Shown here one piece after another: positions 2 through 18,838 of a stretch of 20,567 nucleotides of DNA. Numbering within the stretch: position 1 is the first letter of the stretch; each line of letters starts with the position of its first letter. Both the position numbers and the translations under genes were made by a program. The notes beneath the pieces were generated by a model. It was not told the origin of the DNA, did not search any database, and saw nothing but the letters and a program-made list of their open reading frames with translations. The DNA is from a virus, in IMG/VR virus record IMGVR_UViG_3300001680_000259, positions 1-20,567 of that record; one strand, given 5' to 3'.

Positions 2-3000
2 ACTGGAAAACCTAAGGTTAAGAGACAAAAGCCAGAGGAACCAGAGGAAGAGGTTAAGAAGAAAGTAGTTAAGAAACTTAAGAAACCTACCGCTAAGAAA
101 GTAGTTAAGAAGAAAGTAGTCGCTAAGAAACCTACCGCTAAGAAAGTAGTTAAACTTACTACTCCTAAGGAACTTAAGAAGCCTACCCTTACTACTAAAC
201 AGAAGTCATTTAATACTGCCAACAAAGCTGACCCTATTAAGAAGAAGAAGAAGTTAGCTAGTGCAACTGCAATCGGAACTTTGTATTCTAAACTTAGACC
301 AGAAAGTAGTACGGTTCGATACTCTAATTTAGATGCAGCAACGCAGGAAGAATTTAATAAAGCCTATTTAGGTGGTACGTTAACTGAAGAACTTATAAAC
401 GATATTGATGAACGTGGTGCTAAGAGTGTTGAGAAAGTAAAAGTTATGGCTGCAGCCGTAGCCAAGGATGAAACTAAAGTTGAAGAAGAACGTGCCGCAG
501 AGCAAGCGAGAATTGACAACGCAGCAAAACTTAAAGACGAAGTAGAGAGAGTATGGTTAAGCCAACAGACGCCGTACCTTGAATTTATTAGTGCATCGTT
601 TGCCGACTTCACTAAGACGGGTAAGAAAAAGTTTGAAGATAGGATTAGTACAGGTGAAGTTACTCTAGTAGGGCAGAAAGAAAAAGCTGTTGACTCATTA
701 CTACTTGACCAAGGTGCATTACCTAGAGCCATCACTAAGGCTATGCGTTCAGTAGACTCTCCTTTATTTAAAGCGGCTATGCGTGATGTGGCATACCTTA
801 CTTATATTAAGAAATCAGGTAAGAAGACAGACGTCTTAAAAGGCCCAGAGTTTATTGACTACATGCTTAATAACCTAAAGGTAGCTCAAGTTGAAAGAGA
901 CCTTGTGGCTGACGCATTACGTGAAGTTATGGCTGACAACCCTATTGAGGGCACAGCACTTAAAGACCATCCGATTGCTAAAGTTATACCACTTACTGCT
1001 AAGCAGACTAAGACAGTCGAGAAAGCCTGGGGTATGGATAAGCCGAAACAGACTAGAGCAAAAGTGGAAGAAGTCGAGGCAACAACCCCCGAGACCCTGA
1101 TTAATCGCTTAGACAGATTAAAACTCAGTGGCGCTAACAGGAGGAACGATGCTTCAGTTACTGAGATTGAGGGTTTGTTCAACCAGTTGACTGCTAAGGA
1201 ACTACGCAATACTAAGTGGCGTGACCACAATATTAAAGACTGGTTCGCTGATGGCAAGTTAATACTTAATCAGCGTTCATTCACTAACTCCGAAGGGCAG
1301 AGCCAACAACGACTAGCACCATCAACTACCAAAGTAGACATCAAGAAAGAAGGGCTTACATACGCCGACAAAATTAAAGCTGTTGCTGCAAAACCTAACA
1401 GGACAGCCCAGTTGGCTGAGCGTAAGAAGCAGGGGTTAACCCCGGAGCTTGATAACATATTAAAAGAAGCTGCACTAATAGCTGAACAAGAAGATACAGC
1501 GAAAGCTCAGACTGAGTCCCGCGTACAACAAGCAGATGAGTTTGGTTTACTCGACCAGTTCGGTACTATTGAAGACGACGACATGCAGTTCTTCGGTGAG
1601 CATAATGGTCATCCACTAAGACACAACGTAGGTGTTAGCGAAGTAAATCTAATTGCAGTTAACTTTATTAATAAGTTAAAGACTTCTCTAAAACCTACTA
1701 TCGATGTGTACCATGACACCGCAGCATTCATACGCGAGAATAAAAAGTTATTCGATAAAGCTAAAAGAACTGGTAAGTTCGATGAGAGCACTAACGCTAT
1801 GGCTTTCCATATGGGTAACGCTGTAGTTCTATTCAGTAGTAACATCCGAACTGAAAAACAAGTTAAGACAATCTTAGCTCACGAAATACTAGGTCACCAT
1901 GGTTTACGTTCAGTTGTATCTAAAGCAAAACTAAAAGCATTACTAGATAAGTTCTACAACACAGATGCTAACATCCGAAATATTGTAGACCACAGTGTTA
2001 CTATACACCACGTTGATAAATATATAGCTATTGAAGAAGCCATTGCTGATAAGGCAATGATATTAGATACGTCGTTGCTTAATAGAATCTGGACAATGAT
2101 TAAGAACGTACTGAATAAGGCAGGCCTTAAGTTCGGTGATGAGCTGTCTCGATATTGGGTAGGGCAAATACGCCGCTTCGTTCGCTATGGTCTTAACGAT
2201 GGCACGTTCAGTGTAGAAGATATACAGCAGGCGATGCACGACATGAGAGAACGCGGTAATAGTATTCGGTTTATGGAGCAACATACTAACGCTCAGTTAG
2301 GCAGTGACTTTATAGCAATGAATGCTCAGAATCGAGTCGACTCATTAACAGGTGGTATGGATGGTATTAGGGATTATATTCAGAACGAGCCTATACAGCG
2401 CCTGCTTAGAAAAGCAGGTGGCGCAAAGTCATTCCTAGGTGGAACACTTGAAGCACTACAAACTCTAAACCATAAGGCTACTCGAAGCGAAGGTCTGACA
2501 GACCTGTATGGTTTCTTTATGGCTGTGTCTAATGCTTCGAAGAATTTCTTAGACCACTATCAGTTGATGACTAAGACTCAATATTCAGCGGGCTGGTGGG
2601 GTAAACCAGATGCTACTAAGGAAGATAAACTAAAAGCAGGTGAACTATTAGCATTCACTTCCCTCTATAAGAAAAAGCAAGTAACTGATAACCAGTTAGA
2701 TAAAGTCCCTGACCTAGTTGTGTTTGATGAAACTGGTGGCGTAGCAAAAGATGAGCAGGCTTTTAAACAAGCTGAAAGCTTTGGTAGTATGACACTGAAC
2801 GAAGTTAGGAAAGGTATTAAGATTGCAGAAGACGGTTCAGTATGGGGTAAAAAAGACACAGCTCCGTGGCTACATGATGAGTCATTTACTGAAGACCATA
2901 TTATATGGCGGATGTATTTAGAGAATAGAAATGCTACTAACCAAGCTGCTATTGATGTACTTATTGCTGAAATTAAGGGTGCGTTCGCTGAGAAGACAGC

Positions 3001-5899
3001 ATACATTGATGACCTACGTAAGTTACGAGGCGCAACAGGTGAGCATCTATCTAGGGAAGATACTGAGTTCTTCCATAAGTCATTGCGTGAATACTTTACT
3101 ATGCGGGCTGAAGCTAGTACCCTCGAAGAAGACACATTAATATTAGATGAGGAATCTAAGCTGAGAGCCAACGAATGGCTAAACGCAATTATCCGTGGTA
3201 TGCATAATCCTCAAAAGCTTGTTGATATTAGAGCATCAGTAGAGAAAGGCACAGGTGAGCACGGTACTTTATTTAAAGGGCGTACTGATATCCTTAATAG
3301 TGTGCAAGCTATCCACGACAAAAAAGTTACGCAGGTACAAGCACAGAAAGTACAACATGTAATACAGAAGTTATTCATTACTGATAACCGTCTTGCTAAT
3401 GTTCAGATTGGCGCTAAGAGTACCATCATGGGTTCGTACGTACAGTTTGTTCGTAATGCTAAGTATCAAATTAGACTACAAGCATTCTTATATGAGGATG
3501 GTGTGAAGGGTGCATCTATTCGTTTAAGTGAAGAAATGAGAGCGCAGATGCCGTACTACCAAGTTGCAACTAAGGAACAAGCTGCTAGCATTGTTAATTT
3601 CTTGGACAGTACTATAAGTAAAACATCATCTGGTAAGGTTAGAGTTATTAAGGTTAAAGATGTTGATGACCAAGAGCGTAGTGTAATAATAGAACCACGT
3701 TGGGGTACTGCTCCTAAGCAATCACCGTCATCTGGTTCTGTATCATATAGAGACATTGCAGGCTTACTTATTAGGTTGGATATTAAGTTAACCCCAACCC
3801 AAAATGAAAGAATTGTAACCGCAACGGCACGCTATGAATCACAAGCGCGTAAGCACTTGATGAGAACAGGTAACCCAGGTTGGGATAAGAATGTACTGAA
3901 GAATATTGCTTCATACCTAGAGACTAAAGCGCACATTGCTGCTAAGAGTGAGTACCGTTATGCGATTGATAGACTGATGGCTGATGAGAGTAAGTGGCGT
4001 GGTCATAGAGCAACACTAGTAAAACTTGCTAACGAGTTAACTGACGCAAATAAATTAGACAATGAAGAAGCGAAGTTCATAGCGAAGCAACGCTTCGATA
4101 CGTATGCATATATGTATCGTTACTCAGCTGATATGAATGTTAGTGGTATCGAAACAGTTAAAGTAGATGGTAAAGACATCGAGTTAAAACTTGAAGGTCG
4201 TGGAGAATACTACCGCGATGAAGGAAGAAAGCTAATAGCGTGGTATGACCAGACCAGGAATATTGTAACCAGTACTGAGGATTTATTATCTGGGTCACTT
4301 GGGTCACAACTTAAACTTGCCACCGTAACCATGCAATTAGGTATGAGTTTTGCTACGGCGGCTGTGAACTTAACTTCTATCCCCCTACTTACTATACCTA
4401 ACCTAGCCACTTATAATCAGAAACGAGGCTTCGGTGGAGGCTTCGGTTTCTCTAAAGCTTCCGCAGCAGTGGGTAAAGCAACATCCGATATTAAGAATAC
4501 TAAATTTGGTACGACTGAGTTCTTATATGACATGGTTAAGAACTGGGATAAATCAAAAATGTACAACGAGTACGGCCTAACACTTGATGAAGCTGTGTTC
4601 CTAAGAGATGAAACTGAGCGCGGAACTATGGCTCCTGCACAGATGAATGCATTGCTTGGTTCATCACGTGGTGGTGTCCATTCTGCTTGGGCTATCAAAG
4701 GTATTACAGGTTGGATGTATGCGTTCTCACAGACTGAGCAGTTAAACAGACGTGTATCTGGTTTGGCAGCATATAGATTAGAGCGTGATAGATTTATGGC
4801 GGCGAATCCTAATGCAAGTACAGCCGAGATTCAGGATTATGCTAAAACAAAAGCAGGTCAGTTTGTGTACGACAGTCAAGGTAACTATGACATGTACAAC
4901 AGACCTGAGATTGCTCGTGGTAACTTGTTCCAGTACCCTATGATGTATAAGCAATTCACTCTGTCGGCAATCAAATTATTTGCTCAGATGGATGTGAAAG
5001 GTAGAACCTATGCAATGGGATTACTATTCTTAGTAGCTGGTATGAAAGGTATGCCATTCGCTGACGACATCATGGACTTACTAGATACGCTAATACAATT
5101 CTTCGGTATTAAAATGCCGACAATAGAGAAGGCGGCATTAGAAATTGTTGAGGACGTAGCCCCCGGCATGGGGCCATATTTCATGAGGGGTGTTGCAGAT
5201 AGATGGTTCGGTGGAACGATATCGACTAGACTTGGCTTCGGTGATTTATTCCCATTAACTGGAATGCTTAAAGCAGGTTCAGACCCATGGCGAGAGGCAG
5301 AGAATTTATTCGGCCCAGTATGGACAACAGGTAAGGGTATCCTAGGTACAGCAGGACAGATAAGTAAGTATGGGTTAGAAGCCATCGGCTTAAGAGAAGG
5401 TCGTACGGATGGACGTACTATTCTTCGAGAGATGCCAGTAACAGCGGTACGTGCTATCACTGATGGATACACGTTCTATACTGACGGTATGATTACTAAT
5501 GCTCAAGGCAAAGTAGTGTCACGAGATATGACAACATGGACAGCATTCACAAGGCTGTTAGGATTCTATCCTTCAGTTGCTACTGCGGAGAATGATATTG
5601 TTAGAATGTCTAAACAGACATCGGATTATGCTAAGGACATACGTGCTGAGTTCCGTAATGCGTACATCAAAGCAAAGATTGGGAAGGATACAGAAACCAT
5701 GCAACAGGTTATTAGAGACGTTAATAACTGGAATGCTGAGACGAGAGGTACTGAGTTTTATATGCGCAACTTCCTTAAGTCAGCGAATAGAGCATACCGC
5801 GAATGGAATAAAACCACCTCGGAAAGATTCCTCAAGTCTGCACCAAAAGGTATCAGACCTGAGACGAAGTGGCTAATGGATGTTTTTGTAAACGAATAG
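2..5899 (+). CDS. Giant polyvalent virion/ejection protein with zincin-like peptidase motif, 5' end cut by window edge
   Basis: The frame is open from position 2 to the TAG at 5897-5899, giving at least 1,965 residues; the true start lies left of the window. A TTG at 281 is only an internal codon, because the upstream 93 codons are open and encode a lysine-rich region (KKVVKK, KPTAKK units). Around residue 627 (counted from position 2) there is HEILGHHG, and about 51 residues later EEAIAD. This is the HExxxH plus downstream glutamate layout of the zincin-like domains in phage polyvalent proteins. Residues about 1437-1470 and 1670-1704 are hydrophobic, and about 1740 reads RLGFGDLFPLTG, resembling the LPD38/PLxRFG C-terminal domain of such proteins. 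Known family members are very large virion proteins thought to enter the host with the DNA. I infer an ejected structural protein with possible protease activity; the middle 1,000 residues I do not recognise. The gene ends tail to tail with the opposite-strand operon, with no base between the stop codons. Confidence 0.85.
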   Translation, partial: TGKPKVKRQKPEEPEEEVKKKVVKKLKKPTAKKVVKKKVVAKKPTAKKVVKLTTPKELKKPTLTTKQKSFNTANKADPIKKKKKLASATAIGTLYSKLRPESSTVRYSNLDAATQEEFNKAYLGGTLTEELINDIDERGAKSVEKVKVMAAAVAKDETKVEEERAAEQARIDNAAKLKDEVERVWLSQQTPYLEFISASFADFTKTGKKKFEDRISTGEVTLVGQKEKAVDSLLLDQGALPRAITKAMRSVDSPLFKAAMRDVAYLTYIKKSGKKTDVLKGPEFIDYMLNNLKVAQVERDLVADALREVMADNPIEGTALKDHPIAKVIPLTAKQTKTVEKAWGMDKPKQTRAKVEEVEATTPETLINRLDRLKLSGANRRNDASVTEIEGLFNQLTAKELRNTKWRDHNIKDWFADGKLILNQRSFTNSEGQSQQRLAPSTTKVDIKKEGLTYADKIKAVAAKPNRTAQLAERKKQGLTPELDNILKEAALIAEQEDTAKAQTESRVQQADEFGLLDQFGTIEDDDMQFFGEHNGHPLRHNVGVSEVNLIAVNFINKLKTSLKPTIDVYHDTAAFIRENKKLFDKAKRTGKFDESTNAMAFHMGNAVVLFSSNIRTEKQVKTILAHEILGHHGLRSVVSKAKLKALLDKFYNTDANIRNIVDHSVTIHHVDKYIAIEEAIADKAMILDTSLLNRIWTMIKNVLNKAGLKFGDELSRYWVGQIRRFVRYGLNDGTFSVEDIQQAMHDMRERGNSIRFMEQHTNAQLGSDFIAMNAQNRVDSLTGGMDGIRDYIQNEPIQRLLRKAGGAKSFLGGTLEALQTLNHKATRSEGLTDLYGFFMAVSNASKNFLDHYQLMTKTQYSAGWWGKPDATKEDKLKAGELLAFTSLYKKKQVTDNQLDKVPDLVVFDETGGVAKDEQAFKQAESFGSMTLNEVRKGIKIAEDGSVWGKKDTAPWLHDESFTEDHIIWRMYLENRNATNQAAIDVLIAEIKGAFAEKTAYIDDLRKLRGATGEHLSREDTEFFHKSLREYFTMRAEASTLEEDTLILDEESKLRANEWLNAIIRGMHNPQKLVDIRASVEKGTGEHGTLFKGRTDILNSVQAIHDKKVTQVQAQKVQHVIQKLFITDNRLANVQIGAKSTIMGSYVQFVRNAKYQIRLQAFLYEDGVKGASIRLSEEMRAQMPYYQVATKEQAASIVNFLDSTISKTSSGKVRVIKVKDVDDQERSVIIEPRWGTAPKQSPSSGSVSYRDIAGLLIRLDIKLTPTQNERIVTATARYESQARKHLMRTGNPGWDKNVLKNIASYLETKAHIAAKSEYRYAIDRLMADESKWRGHRATLVKLANELTDANKLDNEEAKFIAKQRFDTYAYMYRYSADMNVSGIETVKVDGKDIELKLEGRGEYYRDEGRKLIAWYDQTRNIVTSTEDLLSGSLGSQLKLATVTMQLGMSFATAAVNLTSIPLLTIPNLATYNQKRGFGGGFGFSKASAAVGKATSDIKNTKFGTTEFLYDMVKNWDKSKMYNEYGLTLDEAVFLRDETERGTMAPAQMNALLGSSRGGVHSAWAIKGITGWMYAFSQTEQLNRRVSGLAAYRLERDRFMAANPNASTAEIQDYAKTKAGQFVYDSQGNYDMYNRPEIARGNLFQYPMMYKQFTLSAIKLFAQMDVKGRTYAMGLLFLVAGMKGMPFADDIMDLLDTLIQFFGIKMPTIEKAALEIVEDVAPGMGPYFMRGVADRWFGGTISTRLGFGDLFPLTGMLKAGSDPWREAENLFGPVWTTGKGILGTAGQISKYGLEAIGLREGRTDGRTILREMPVTAVRAITDGYTFYTDGMITNAQGKVVSRDMTTWTAFTRLLGFYPSVATAENDIVRMSKQTSDYAKDIRAEFRNAYIKAKIGKDTETMQQVIRDVNNWNAETRGTEFYMRNFLKSANRAYREWNKTTSERFLKSAPKGIRPETKWLMDVFVNE
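79..153 (+). repeat. Two 30-bp direct repeats, 45 bp apart, coding lysine-rich tract
   Basis: A 30-base sequence at 79-108 is repeated exactly at 124-153, a period of 45 bases (15 codons), so the reading frame is kept. It encodes KKPTAKKVV-type units inside a longer Lys/Val/Pro/Thr-rich stretch (positions 2-265), similar in style to histone H1-like or AlgP-like basic tails. Such tracts bind nucleic acid in other proteins; here that role is inferred only. Confidence 0.8.
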
Positions 5900-15559: not shown

Positions 15560-16861
15560 TTACTCTCCTAATAATGTAAAGACATCTACACCATGACCAC
15601 AATCTTTGTCGTATTGGTTCGCTATCCCTACTGCTTGTTCTGCACTAGCACCCATTGCTAATGCACCGTAGGCAATATCTTGCCCACTTCCAAAAGCACA
15701 AGCCTTACGCCCATGCTCAATAGGTATTGGCGTTTGTTCATAACGCCTCAACCCATGTTCGTCTACCACTATAAAATGACACCAGTTATTACCCTTCTGT
15801 ATCTCGGGGAAGTCCTCTGACTTTTCACCTGCCTTGTACCACTCTCGCATTGCTAGTATGCACCCAAGTGTACCAGTGCCAGTTAATAGTACATCTTTAT
15901 ACAGCCATGCTTTTTCAACACAGTGGTGTATGTTCCCACTACTAGCGGCTTTGTCAGTAGCAAGAGTCATACCGTCCCAAACTACTACACTCATAAGTTC
16001 AACACTATATGTAGTACAGATTCTATCTGTTTCCCTGATAACGTCATTAGGTTTAGGTCTTGCCCAAGTCCATGTGTAATCTGGTCTATAACTCTTGGTG
16101 ATACCTAACAATAATTCTTTAGGGAATTTGTTATCTCTAATGCTTTCAAACAACAGTGCCCTATGCTCATCATGTGACCAGTCTGGTCTGTCATAGTATC
16201 CATGACTACCTTCCTTCTGTATTGTGTCAGAAAAACCCTCAAAGATATTCATCTTGGCTCTAACTTTAATACCTTTCTTGAACTCACGTAATGCTCTCAA
16301 CCAATGAAGTCGTTTCTCTGGGATAGATATAAGTTTGTCATCTGGTCTACGGTTAAGACACTCACCCGTTGCTAAGTCAAAGGTTATCCCTTGGAAGTAT
16401 TCGGGTGCATCTTTCTTTAACCATGCCCACCAGTCTATATGATGCCAATTACTAGGGTTGCCATTACTAGTATCAACAGCGTTTTTAATTACTTGTTCAT
16501 TGTGTGCCAGTCGATACCTACCCTTAGCAATCCTAAGTATAGTGAGGGGCATTGCTCTATGTAATGAACTAGATAGGGTGTTAGAACTACTCCATACTTC
16601 CTCACTAGTAGCAGTGAATACTACTGTGTTGTTAGGCTTAAACCTACACAGTTCAGTGTTCCAGCACTTAACATAGTAGTCCTCACCATCTTTATGTATC
16701 CTTGCCCAAGTACGCAGTGGCTTACCCTTATCGGGAAACCTTGCACGTTCATAATATGCCTTAACACTTTTATAGTCTGTTACTGTTGCTTCTCTTAACC
16801 AATGTGCCACACCATCTCCTTTGCGTTCTTGCTCACTGTATTGTCCTATGTATGTACCCAT
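15560..16861 (-). CDS. Unknown phage domain fused to HslV/proteasome-like Ntn hydrolase
   Basis: A 433-residue chain from the ATG at 16861 (GGGAGGAT upstream). Residues 1-289 are an aromatic-rich domain I do not recognise by function (KGKPLRTWARIHKDG, CLNRRPDDK, SIPEKRLHWLRALREFKKGIK). Residues 290-433 match phage HslV-like proteins of the proteasome beta-subunit fold: MSVVVWDGMTLATDK, where S291 would be the N-terminal nucleophile, D303 and K317 fit the catalytic Asp and Lys, and AFGSGQDIAYGALAMGASAEQAV is the conserved GSG segment. In the normal enzyme the nucleophile must be at the chain start. Here it follows an internal Met, so activity needs self-cleavage, internal initiation at the ATG at 15994 (no ribosome site seen), or a two-gene arrangement hidden by an indel: the ATG sits in TTATGA, which carries a +1 frame stop. 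It lies in the same operon as DUF2201/VWA and DUF3150-like genes. Confidence 0.75.
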   Translation of the reverse strand: MGTYIGQYSEQERKGDGVAHWLREATVTDYKSVKAYYERARFPDKGKPLRTWARIHKDGEDYYVKCWNTELCRFKPNNTVVFTATSEEVWSSSNTLSSSLHRAMPLTILRIAKGRYRLAHNEQVIKNAVDTSNGNPSNWHHIDWWAWLKKDAPEYFQGITFDLATGECLNRRPDDKLISIPEKRLHWLRALREFKKGIKVRAKMNIFEGFSDTIQKEGSHGYYDRPDWSHDEHRALLFESIRDNKFPKELLLGITKSYRPDYTWTWARPKPNDVIRETDRICTTYSVELMSVVVWDGMTLATDKAASSGNIHHCVEKAWLYKDVLLTGTGTLGCILAMREWYKAGEKSEDFPEIQKGNNWCHFIVVDEHGLRRYEQTPIPIEHGRKACAFGSGQDIAYGALAMGASAEQAVGIANQYDKDCGHGVDVFTLLGE

Positions 16862-16870
16862 ATATCCTCC

Positions 16871-17533
16871 CTATCGTATTAGTTTATTTAATGTTACTGC
16901 GGCTGTTAGGCTATCAACATCAAGGTCGCCTAGTTCTTTAGCATCACCTCGCTTACGGTTAGTAATTTTCAAGTGTCGTTCCTTGTACTCCTCTGGTATC
17001 AAGTCCCATAGTGCAGGGAATACCTTGAGTGCTGGGCCGAGTGTAGAGTATGTGTTCATTATCTGCTTGACACCTCGGGTAAACTTATCACGTTTATCCA
17101 TGATAACTGTCTGTGCTTCACGCCATACCTTGTACTCACCTTGAATTGTAGCAAACCTAGGTAGTCCGTACATTAAGGTTAACCCTCTCCAAGAGTTATA
17201 GAAGTCATCAAAGTCATCACCGTCTGGTGTACGGTGAGGGGAAGTGAAGTTAAATACTAAGCCGTCATCTGCCTTCCAAAATCTATCGTACTCACCTTGA
17301 GGTAAGTTTTTAAATCCTCTGAATGTTATTTGTTGAGTTGTACCCATGAAGTTCTTAGGTAAAGCATTCATCTTATCTCTAATATCTTTATCAAACATTA
17401 GGTTGTATAGATACTCTGCATTCCACGTTGATGGAATATCTGCCTTTGCTTTATCAAGTTCTTTATCAAACATTTTCCTTGCCTTTTTGTTAATTTCATC
17501 TTTTAGTTTGTCACTAAATCTTACTGTTGCCAT
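16871..17533 (-). CDS. Phage protein of unknown function (PALKVFPALWDLIPEE type)
   Basis: Two hundred twenty residues from the ATG at 17533 with TAGGAGAG upstream; 17 bases separate it from the VWA gene and 9 from the HslV fusion. The N-terminus is a basic helix (RFSDKLKDEINKKARKMFDKEL). Further on are MNALPKNFMG, RDKFTRGVKQIMNTYSTLG and the striking PALKVFPALWDLIPEEYKERH. From memory such proteins recur in phage early regions and carry no functional name. There is no signal peptide, membrane segment or catalytic motif. Its fixed place between the VWA-metallopeptidase and the HslV-like gene suggests a link with that module. Confidence 0.75.
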   Translation of the reverse strand: MATVRFSDKLKDEINKKARKMFDKELDKAKADIPSTWNAEYLYNLMFDKDIRDKMNALPKNFMGTTQQITFRGFKNLPQGEYDRFWKADDGLVFNFTSPHRTPDGDDFDDFYNSWRGLTLMYGLPRFATIQGEYKVWREAQTVIMDKRDKFTRGVKQIMNTYSTLGPALKVFPALWDLIPEEYKERHLKITNRKRGDAKELGDLDVDSLTAAVTLNKLIR

Positions 17534-17550
17534 GCTACTCTCCTATTATA

Positions 17551-18642
17551 TTAATCATTCATCACCACTACTTCACCGAATGGTGCACTCGTACTACTAC
17601 TATCAGTAGTTACCCACAGTGTCGGGTAAGGTGGCTCATTACCGAAGTCATTGCAGTATAAGTCTGTCAGTACAACACAGGCTACTGGTTCTATATCATG
17701 CTCAGTTATGTACTCAAAGATAGGACTGAATGCAGTTCCACCTCCACCATGAGGTTCAATGTGTAGTTCCTCATCTCTCGTAAACTTATCGTAGTGTGAT
17801 ACTTCAGTATCAAAGTACACTACATGAATAGCACTCGGGTTACTGTCCTCTTTAATGGTCAGTACCTCTGCTGAAAACTGGTCTATTTCTTCTTGCCCGA
17901 TAGAGCCAGAACAATCCACTGCTACAACAAGTTCACCCATGGCTTCACCACTGGTACTTGGTAGGTACATACCTTGTGCTAGAAAGCGTCTGTTAGGTCT
18001 TGCCCAAGAGCGAGTGTCGTCTTTACATTTCTCTACGAACCGTTGCAATACTTCACGCCAGTCCACCTTGGGTTGCAGTACAGTACCAACAAAGCGTTTA
18101 AGTCCTTCACTCATCTTGCCCATCATCTTCGCGGCTTGGGCTGCTTGGGCTACCTTGACTTTCCACTCTGCCGATTGTTGTTCTATCTCAGCAGGTGAAC
18201 CATCAGAACCTATTCCGTTCGTTCCGTTATCACTCTCAGTGGGCAGTATCTTATAGATACCATCTGTTGTACCGTTGCCATGATTCCATATATCTCGGTC
18301 ATAGAGTCCACCATGTGGTATCTTGCCAATGCTCTCATCTACTAGTAGTTGGTTGATGATGTAGTCCCCTGCTTGATTCCACTTACGCATATTTCTTTCA
18401 TTGCGTCTGAAGTTATGCTCTAACATGGGGTGCATACACTCATGGGCTACAAGGAACTTGAGTTCCTCATCGCTTAACTTCTCACAGAAGTCGGGGTTAA
18501 ACTTCACCATCTTACCGTTAGTCGCGGCAGTAGGCACTGAACTGTCTATCTTAAACGGCATGTTCAATGCTATGTTCCCAATGAATGGGTGTTCAAGGAC
18601 TAAGGAAGTCTTTGCTTTACTAAGTCTTTTTTCTATCTCCAT
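17551..18642 (-). CDS. DUF2201-type putative metallopeptidase with VWA-like domain
   Basis: The ATG at 18642 is chosen because GAGGAGA lies seven bases upstream; a GTG at 18660 would place that ribosome site inside the gene. The product has 363 residues. The N-terminal metallopeptidase domain has VAHECMHPMLEH (H67, E68, H71) and downstream WNQAGDYIIN (D93), the pattern of DUF2201 N-terminal proteins. A linker rich in Asn, Gly, Ser and Gln (132-175) leads to a von Willebrand A-like domain, ELVVAVDCSGSIG, with the MIDAS motif D243, S245, S247 and later VVLTDLYCND. Family members usually sit next to a MoxR-type AAA ATPase, which is thought to use the VWA protein to handle targets. Such an ATPase is not inside this window but would be expected right of the DUF3150-like gene. 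Target unknown. Confidence 0.9.
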   Translation of the reverse strand: MEIEKRLSKAKTSLVLEHPFIGNIALNMPFKIDSSVPTAATNGKMVKFNPDFCEKLSDEELKFLVAHECMHPMLEHNFRRNERNMRKWNQAGDYIINQLLVDESIGKIPHGGLYDRDIWNHGNGTTDGIYKILPTESDNGTNGIGSDGSPAEIEQQSAEWKVKVAQAAQAAKMMGKMSEGLKRFVGTVLQPKVDWREVLQRFVEKCKDDTRSWARPNRRFLAQGMYLPSTSGEAMGELVVAVDCSGSIGQEEIDQFSAEVLTIKEDSNPSAIHVVYFDTEVSHYDKFTRDEELHIEPHGGGGTAFSPIFEYITEHDIEPVACVVLTDLYCNDFGNEPPYPTLWVTTDSSSTSAPFGEVVVMND

Positions 18643-18838
18643 TATGTTTCTCCTCTTCACGGATTTGTTTAATACAATGCTCTATGTTCATAAGTGACGC
18701 CATTAGTATTGACTTCGGCATATGAACAAGTAGCGTTTCAATGAGCATACCAGTCTGCATCTCATGCATGTTGTCGTACCATACAGTTAACGCAGTAGGG
18801 AACTCAGTCTTTAGTTTTTTTAGTTCTAGGTCTGTCAT
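18620..18838 (-). CDS. Small hypothetical protein
   Basis: Seventy-two residues from the ATG at 18838 to a TAG at 18620-18622. It overlaps the start of the VWA gene by 23 bases and the end of the upstream membrane-protein gene by 35 bases. The ribosome site (GAGAAAG, about ten bases upstream) is weak, so translation is probably coupled to the gene before. The sequence is helical (LELKKLKTEFPTAL, then a Met-rich MQTGMLIETLLVHM, then LMNIEHCIKQIREEE) with a charged end. No family or catalytic motif is recognised. Confidence 0.65.
   Translation of the reverse strand: MTDLELKKLKTEFPTALTVWYDNMHEMQTGMLIETLLVHMPKSILMASLMNIEHCIKQIREEEKHNGDRKKT

Follow-up and report, generated by a model that had tools for sequence, protein, structure and literature searches.

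An apparent fusion of an unnamed phage protein with a proteasome-like protease is best explained by a small deletion at the overlap of two genes

The 433-codon frame described here carries no internal stop and was found in a window of 20,567 nucleotides (the whole stretch of DNA analysed), itself drawn from the 37,010-base virus record IMGVR_UViG_3300001680_000259 of IMG/VR. Our comparison with relatives suggests that two neighbouring genes, N and PPH (phage proteasome homolog), have been fused in this frame through the net loss of 26 nt where they overlap by ATGA, either as a recent allele or as an assembly or sequencing artefact, and we put the probability of this reading, both branches covered, at roughly 0.88. 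The "buried protease" is most likely the outcome of a recent mutation or of an assembly fault and not a new self-cleaving protein. The frame itself is as the earlier note had read it from the letters: a 433-residue chain with Met290-Ser291 in its middle (positions 15994-15989, minus strand), the ATG of Met290 lying within CTTATGA, with a TGA in the +1 frame (Table 1). A chance open frame was ruled out, both halves having homologues and bearing the mark of purifying selection.

Table 1. Positions in the window of the fused frame, its two halves, their junction and the candidate catalytic residues.
Feature	Position	Strand	Basis
Open frame of 433 codons joining N and PPH	15560..16861	(-)	open frame
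Truncated N gene, 289 residues, unnamed phage protein family	15995..16861	(-)	relatives; model pLDDT 84.3
Junction GTTGAACTTATGAG; close relatives ~26 nt longer between GAACT and ATGAG	15990..16003	(-)	comparison with relatives
PPH gene (phrog_1040) with its own start, ATG 15994; proteasome/HslV-like Ntn hydrolase of 144 aa	15560..15994	(-)	PHROG match, model, alignment
Ser291, candidate nucleophile, residue 2 of free PPH	15989..15991	(-)	superposed on HslV Thr1
Asp303, invariant, aligned to proteasome Asp17	15953..15955	(-)	HMM alignment
Lys317, invariant, aligned to proteasome Lys33	15911..15913	(-)	HMM alignment

Judging from its predicted structure, the stretch from residue 290 to residue 433 is a proteasome-like Ntn hydrolase. 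The only PHROG match of the whole protein covers residues 287-430 and falls on phrog_1040, "peptidase HslV family" (E 3.5e-25), and the AlphaFold model of residues 290-433 presents the Ntn fold that the earlier note had expected, with a pLDDT of 91.5. Foldseek matched this model to HslV (E 4.7e-8) as well as to proteasome subunits, and VIA-align superposed 139 residues on E. coli HslV (4g4e) with a Z of 17.0 and an rmsd of 2.4, the aligned range starting with model residue 2 on HslV residue 1, which sets Ser291 on the HslV nucleophile Thr1. A Pfam search with the window protein gave no match, Proteasome (PF00227) included; six of 38 relatives matched PF00227 weakly. The label "HslV-like" is right at the level of the fold, whereas the closest described family of the protease half is PPH. 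With 144 residues from Met290, the domain amounts to a compact core of ~140 residues, and the catalytic set of the window copy (S291, D303 and K317) is predicted from sequence and model to be intact. Met1, Asp14 and Lys28 in PPH numbering, which correspond to Met290, Asp303 and Lys317, are invariant in an alignment of 38 sequences, the equivalence with Asp17 and Lys33 being taken from an HMM alignment to a proteasome beta subunit; position 2 is Thr in 59 of 81 sequences and Ser in the other 22, and never another residue. A GTG motif occupies the oxyanion place, with PPH Gly41 invariant and with no glycine set exactly on Gly47 by the HMM alignment, and the helices read from the PPH model are H1 (43-54), a 4-residue helix (64-67), H3 (105-113) and H4 (118-128). 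One distant match only was returned when genome contigs were scanned with PPH.

The front half belongs to an unnamed family, N, which many environmental phages encode directly upstream of PPH. The window N matched neither Pfam nor PHROG, a single marginal PHROG match was obtained with 22 members of the family, and tblastn against named phages found nothing. No fold in the PDB matched (best Foldseek E 0.49, VIA Z 3.4); in BFVD the N model met a nameless protein, A0A516LIB2 (E 3.8e-23, 28% identity). N loci are common in IMG/VR, with 178 confirmed stretches, and the family carries two motifs, KGKP and RRxFGVFE. The second of these, chosen among the most conserved N search patterns, is near-invariant, its R, F and V columns standing at 90% or more, down to ~35% identity, and within the N alignment it is missing solely in the window.

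In every relative examined the two halves are separate genes, with the ATGA overlap in most of the close ones. The N profile collected 85 rows, of which one is the window copy, one a fragment at a contig end and one a split row, and among the ~80 other distinct N genes no fusion was found, all of them being separate from PPH. Seen from the protease side, the candidate nucleophile follows directly on the initiator Met in 80 relatives; the window keeps this Met and Ser, but 289 codons run on upstream of them. No long in-frame extension precedes the PPH Met in any of 80 PPH loci (at most 55 codons, usually fewer than 20), and the corresponding in-frame space in the window reaches 292 codons. A scan of all open reading frames in all loci with both profiles returned the window's own copies only, and in the N tree as in the PPH tree the window nests among two-gene relatives. 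An ancestral fusion later split in the relatives was ruled out, since the distant N genes are all separate and most have the tail. The alternative raised at the outset, an indel that joined two coupled genes, finds support both in this two-gene arrangement and in what is missing at the junction.

Exactly at the N/PPH junction, the window is shorter than its close relatives by a net 26 nt, and its fused form reads GAACTTATGAG. In the nearest relatives (L001/L016, L011/L018, L012/L019, L013/L020, L022 and L026) N is a separate gene with ...SVELRRQFGVFEK before its stop, and N and the PPH start share the 4 nt ATGA. These N genes end in ...VELRRQFGVFEK or a near variant, some of them with a short extra tail. 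The window N is devoid of the final nine codons (RRQFGVFEK) and of the stop present in relatives, and the loss takes the only SD-like site (GGAG) before PPH as well. Since RRxFGVFE is near-invariant, N has lost with the deletion the best conserved stretch of its C terminus. From sequence comparison the event can be read in two ways: 26 nt lost together with a substitution, or 27 nt lost in frame with one base gained. A search with the junction pattern, in collections that may lack near-identical contigs, found only two relatives. Across the junction the window DNA runs colinear with L001, L018 and L020, so no rearrangement has occurred there, and we saw no sign of a chimera of two phages, the colinearity being with single relatives.

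As regards the expression of the protease, it seems reasonable to propose that in relatives translation of PPH begins at its own Met, that methionine aminopeptidase would then cleave this Met off and expose Thr/Ser1, and that PPH translation would be coupled to that of N with the help of the SD-like site. The window retains neither the N stop nor the overlap coupling nor the SD-like site, so that most of the Ntn domain would be produced inside a longer chain with its N terminus blocked, and a domain made from the fused frame is probably inactive. A free active PPH protein is unlikely to arise from the window unless by weak internal initiation, because the serine is internal, neither the stop nor the SD-like site remains and Met stands at -1. 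Internal initiation at ATG 15994, yielding PPH free as well as fused, is an improbable way out: this ATG is kept in frame, but neither an SD-like site nor an upstream stop for reinitiation accompanies it, and the predicted anti-SD pairing at the window PPH start is the weakest of 55 (+0.4 vs -3.1 to -13.5 kcal/mol).

The deletion is probably either damaging or artefactual. A purely artefactual origin, in which the phage would possess two genes with a full junction or a slightly shortened N and the fused frame would owe its existence to assembly or sequencing, is one branch of our preferred explanation, and taken alone we regard it as possible but somewhat doubtful. A one-base frame shift at the junction is all that separates the fused from the two-gene reading, and the conserved N tail and the SD-like site are lost in the window alone; yet a loss of 26-27 nt is atypical for a base-calling error, those neighbouring genes that were seen are undamaged and colinearity with relatives is preserved. 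Against the deletion reading as a whole, allele or artefact, it can be held that both halves stay in one frame, which a random indel achieves about once in three. Relative to their relatives, the N and PPH halves both show a dN/dS of ~0.1-0.3, comparable to the values among relatives themselves, and since it is relaxed in neither half, any loss of function is recent.

A normal dN/dS would be equally expected of a functional fusion, and the earlier note had raised the possibility of one, a self-processing protein cleaved between Met290 and Ser291 in the manner of a proteasome beta propeptide with release of both products. The continuous frame, the intact Ser291, Asp303 and Lys317 and the confident Ntn fold are in its favour. 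We nevertheless consider it very improbable and do not retain it, because the fusion is unique among all relatives, the residue at -1 is Met, the conserved N tail is lost and no propeptide is reported for the published PPH proteins (PMC8665760). The deletion reading, allele or artefact, thereby removes a tempting false lead, that of a phage protease that would cleave off its own prodomain of 289 residues, and illustrates how a small junction deletion can yield an apparent fusion protein.

The association of N with PPH may be of wider interest. PPH lies downstream of N on the same strand within 2 kb in 69 of the 84 other N rows, a fraction biased by the many loci that were fetched with PPH as the query, and the overlap is exactly 4 nt in 17 of those 69. 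The linkage extends to distant lineages (L031, L046, L047, L049, L058, L075, L083 and L089). Two other spacings were noted: in L003 an 88-nt stretch between N and PPH (4832-4919) may hold a small extra open reading frame, and in L052 N shares 26 nt with the start of PPH, read in a different frame (~2976-3001), the longest overlap seen. We tentatively suggest that N and PPH might form a dedicated two-gene module of environmental phages, in which N would act as a partner, an adaptor or a substrate, and N could then serve as a handle on what the phage protease PPH does.

The fused frame stands in a phage replication region, amid genes for a family A DNA polymerase, an SNF2-like helicase, a PD-(D/E)XK nuclease and a DUF2201 protein. 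The last of these (17551-18660, minus strand) is a DUF2201 metallopeptidase-like and VWA protein, and its best PHROG match, 1314 "HNH endonuclease", appears mislabelled. The gene at 16871-17533 (minus strand) matched the nucleotide-modification associated domain Nmad5 weakly and below the cut-off (E 5.5e-4). Further away, a giant frame, open over at least 1965 residues (2-5899, plus strand), contains an HEILGHH metallopeptidase-like motif and, scanned from 281, found no match in Pfam at E 0.001.

Among known systems, HslV (ClpQ) and the proteasome beta subunits share with the protease half the Ntn fold and the conserved equivalents of Asp17 and Lys33, but identity is ~20%, the window copy is ~30 residues shorter and it has Ser in place of Thr. 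No HslU-type gene was present among the neighbours scanned. In proteasome beta subunits a Gly usually precedes Thr1; the features of such a precursor are absent here, the -1 residue being Met, not Gly, with no relative fused, and the window's relatives differ from these subunits in having no proteasome-type cleaved propeptide. The PHROG 1040 members Stenotrophomonas phage Siara gp023 and Edwardsiella phage PEi21 gp32 resemble the domain beyond the profile match (29% identity by tblastn) and differ in being stand-alone genes with other neighbours. The closest counterpart is PPH, a group of phage proteins of ~140 residues for which no propeptide has been reported (PMC8665760), with WP_042125023.1 as published representative. 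The window copy departs from it in being preceded by 289 residues, apparently through the deletion. As to encoding by tailed phages, the virus record carries a phage DNA polymerase and the relatives are IMG/VR contigs. The likeness lies in a phage-encoded protein of ~140 residues, a Thr/Ser-Asp-Lys set, a proteasome-like fold in which the second helix of the first pair may be short or absent, and relatives without a propeptide.
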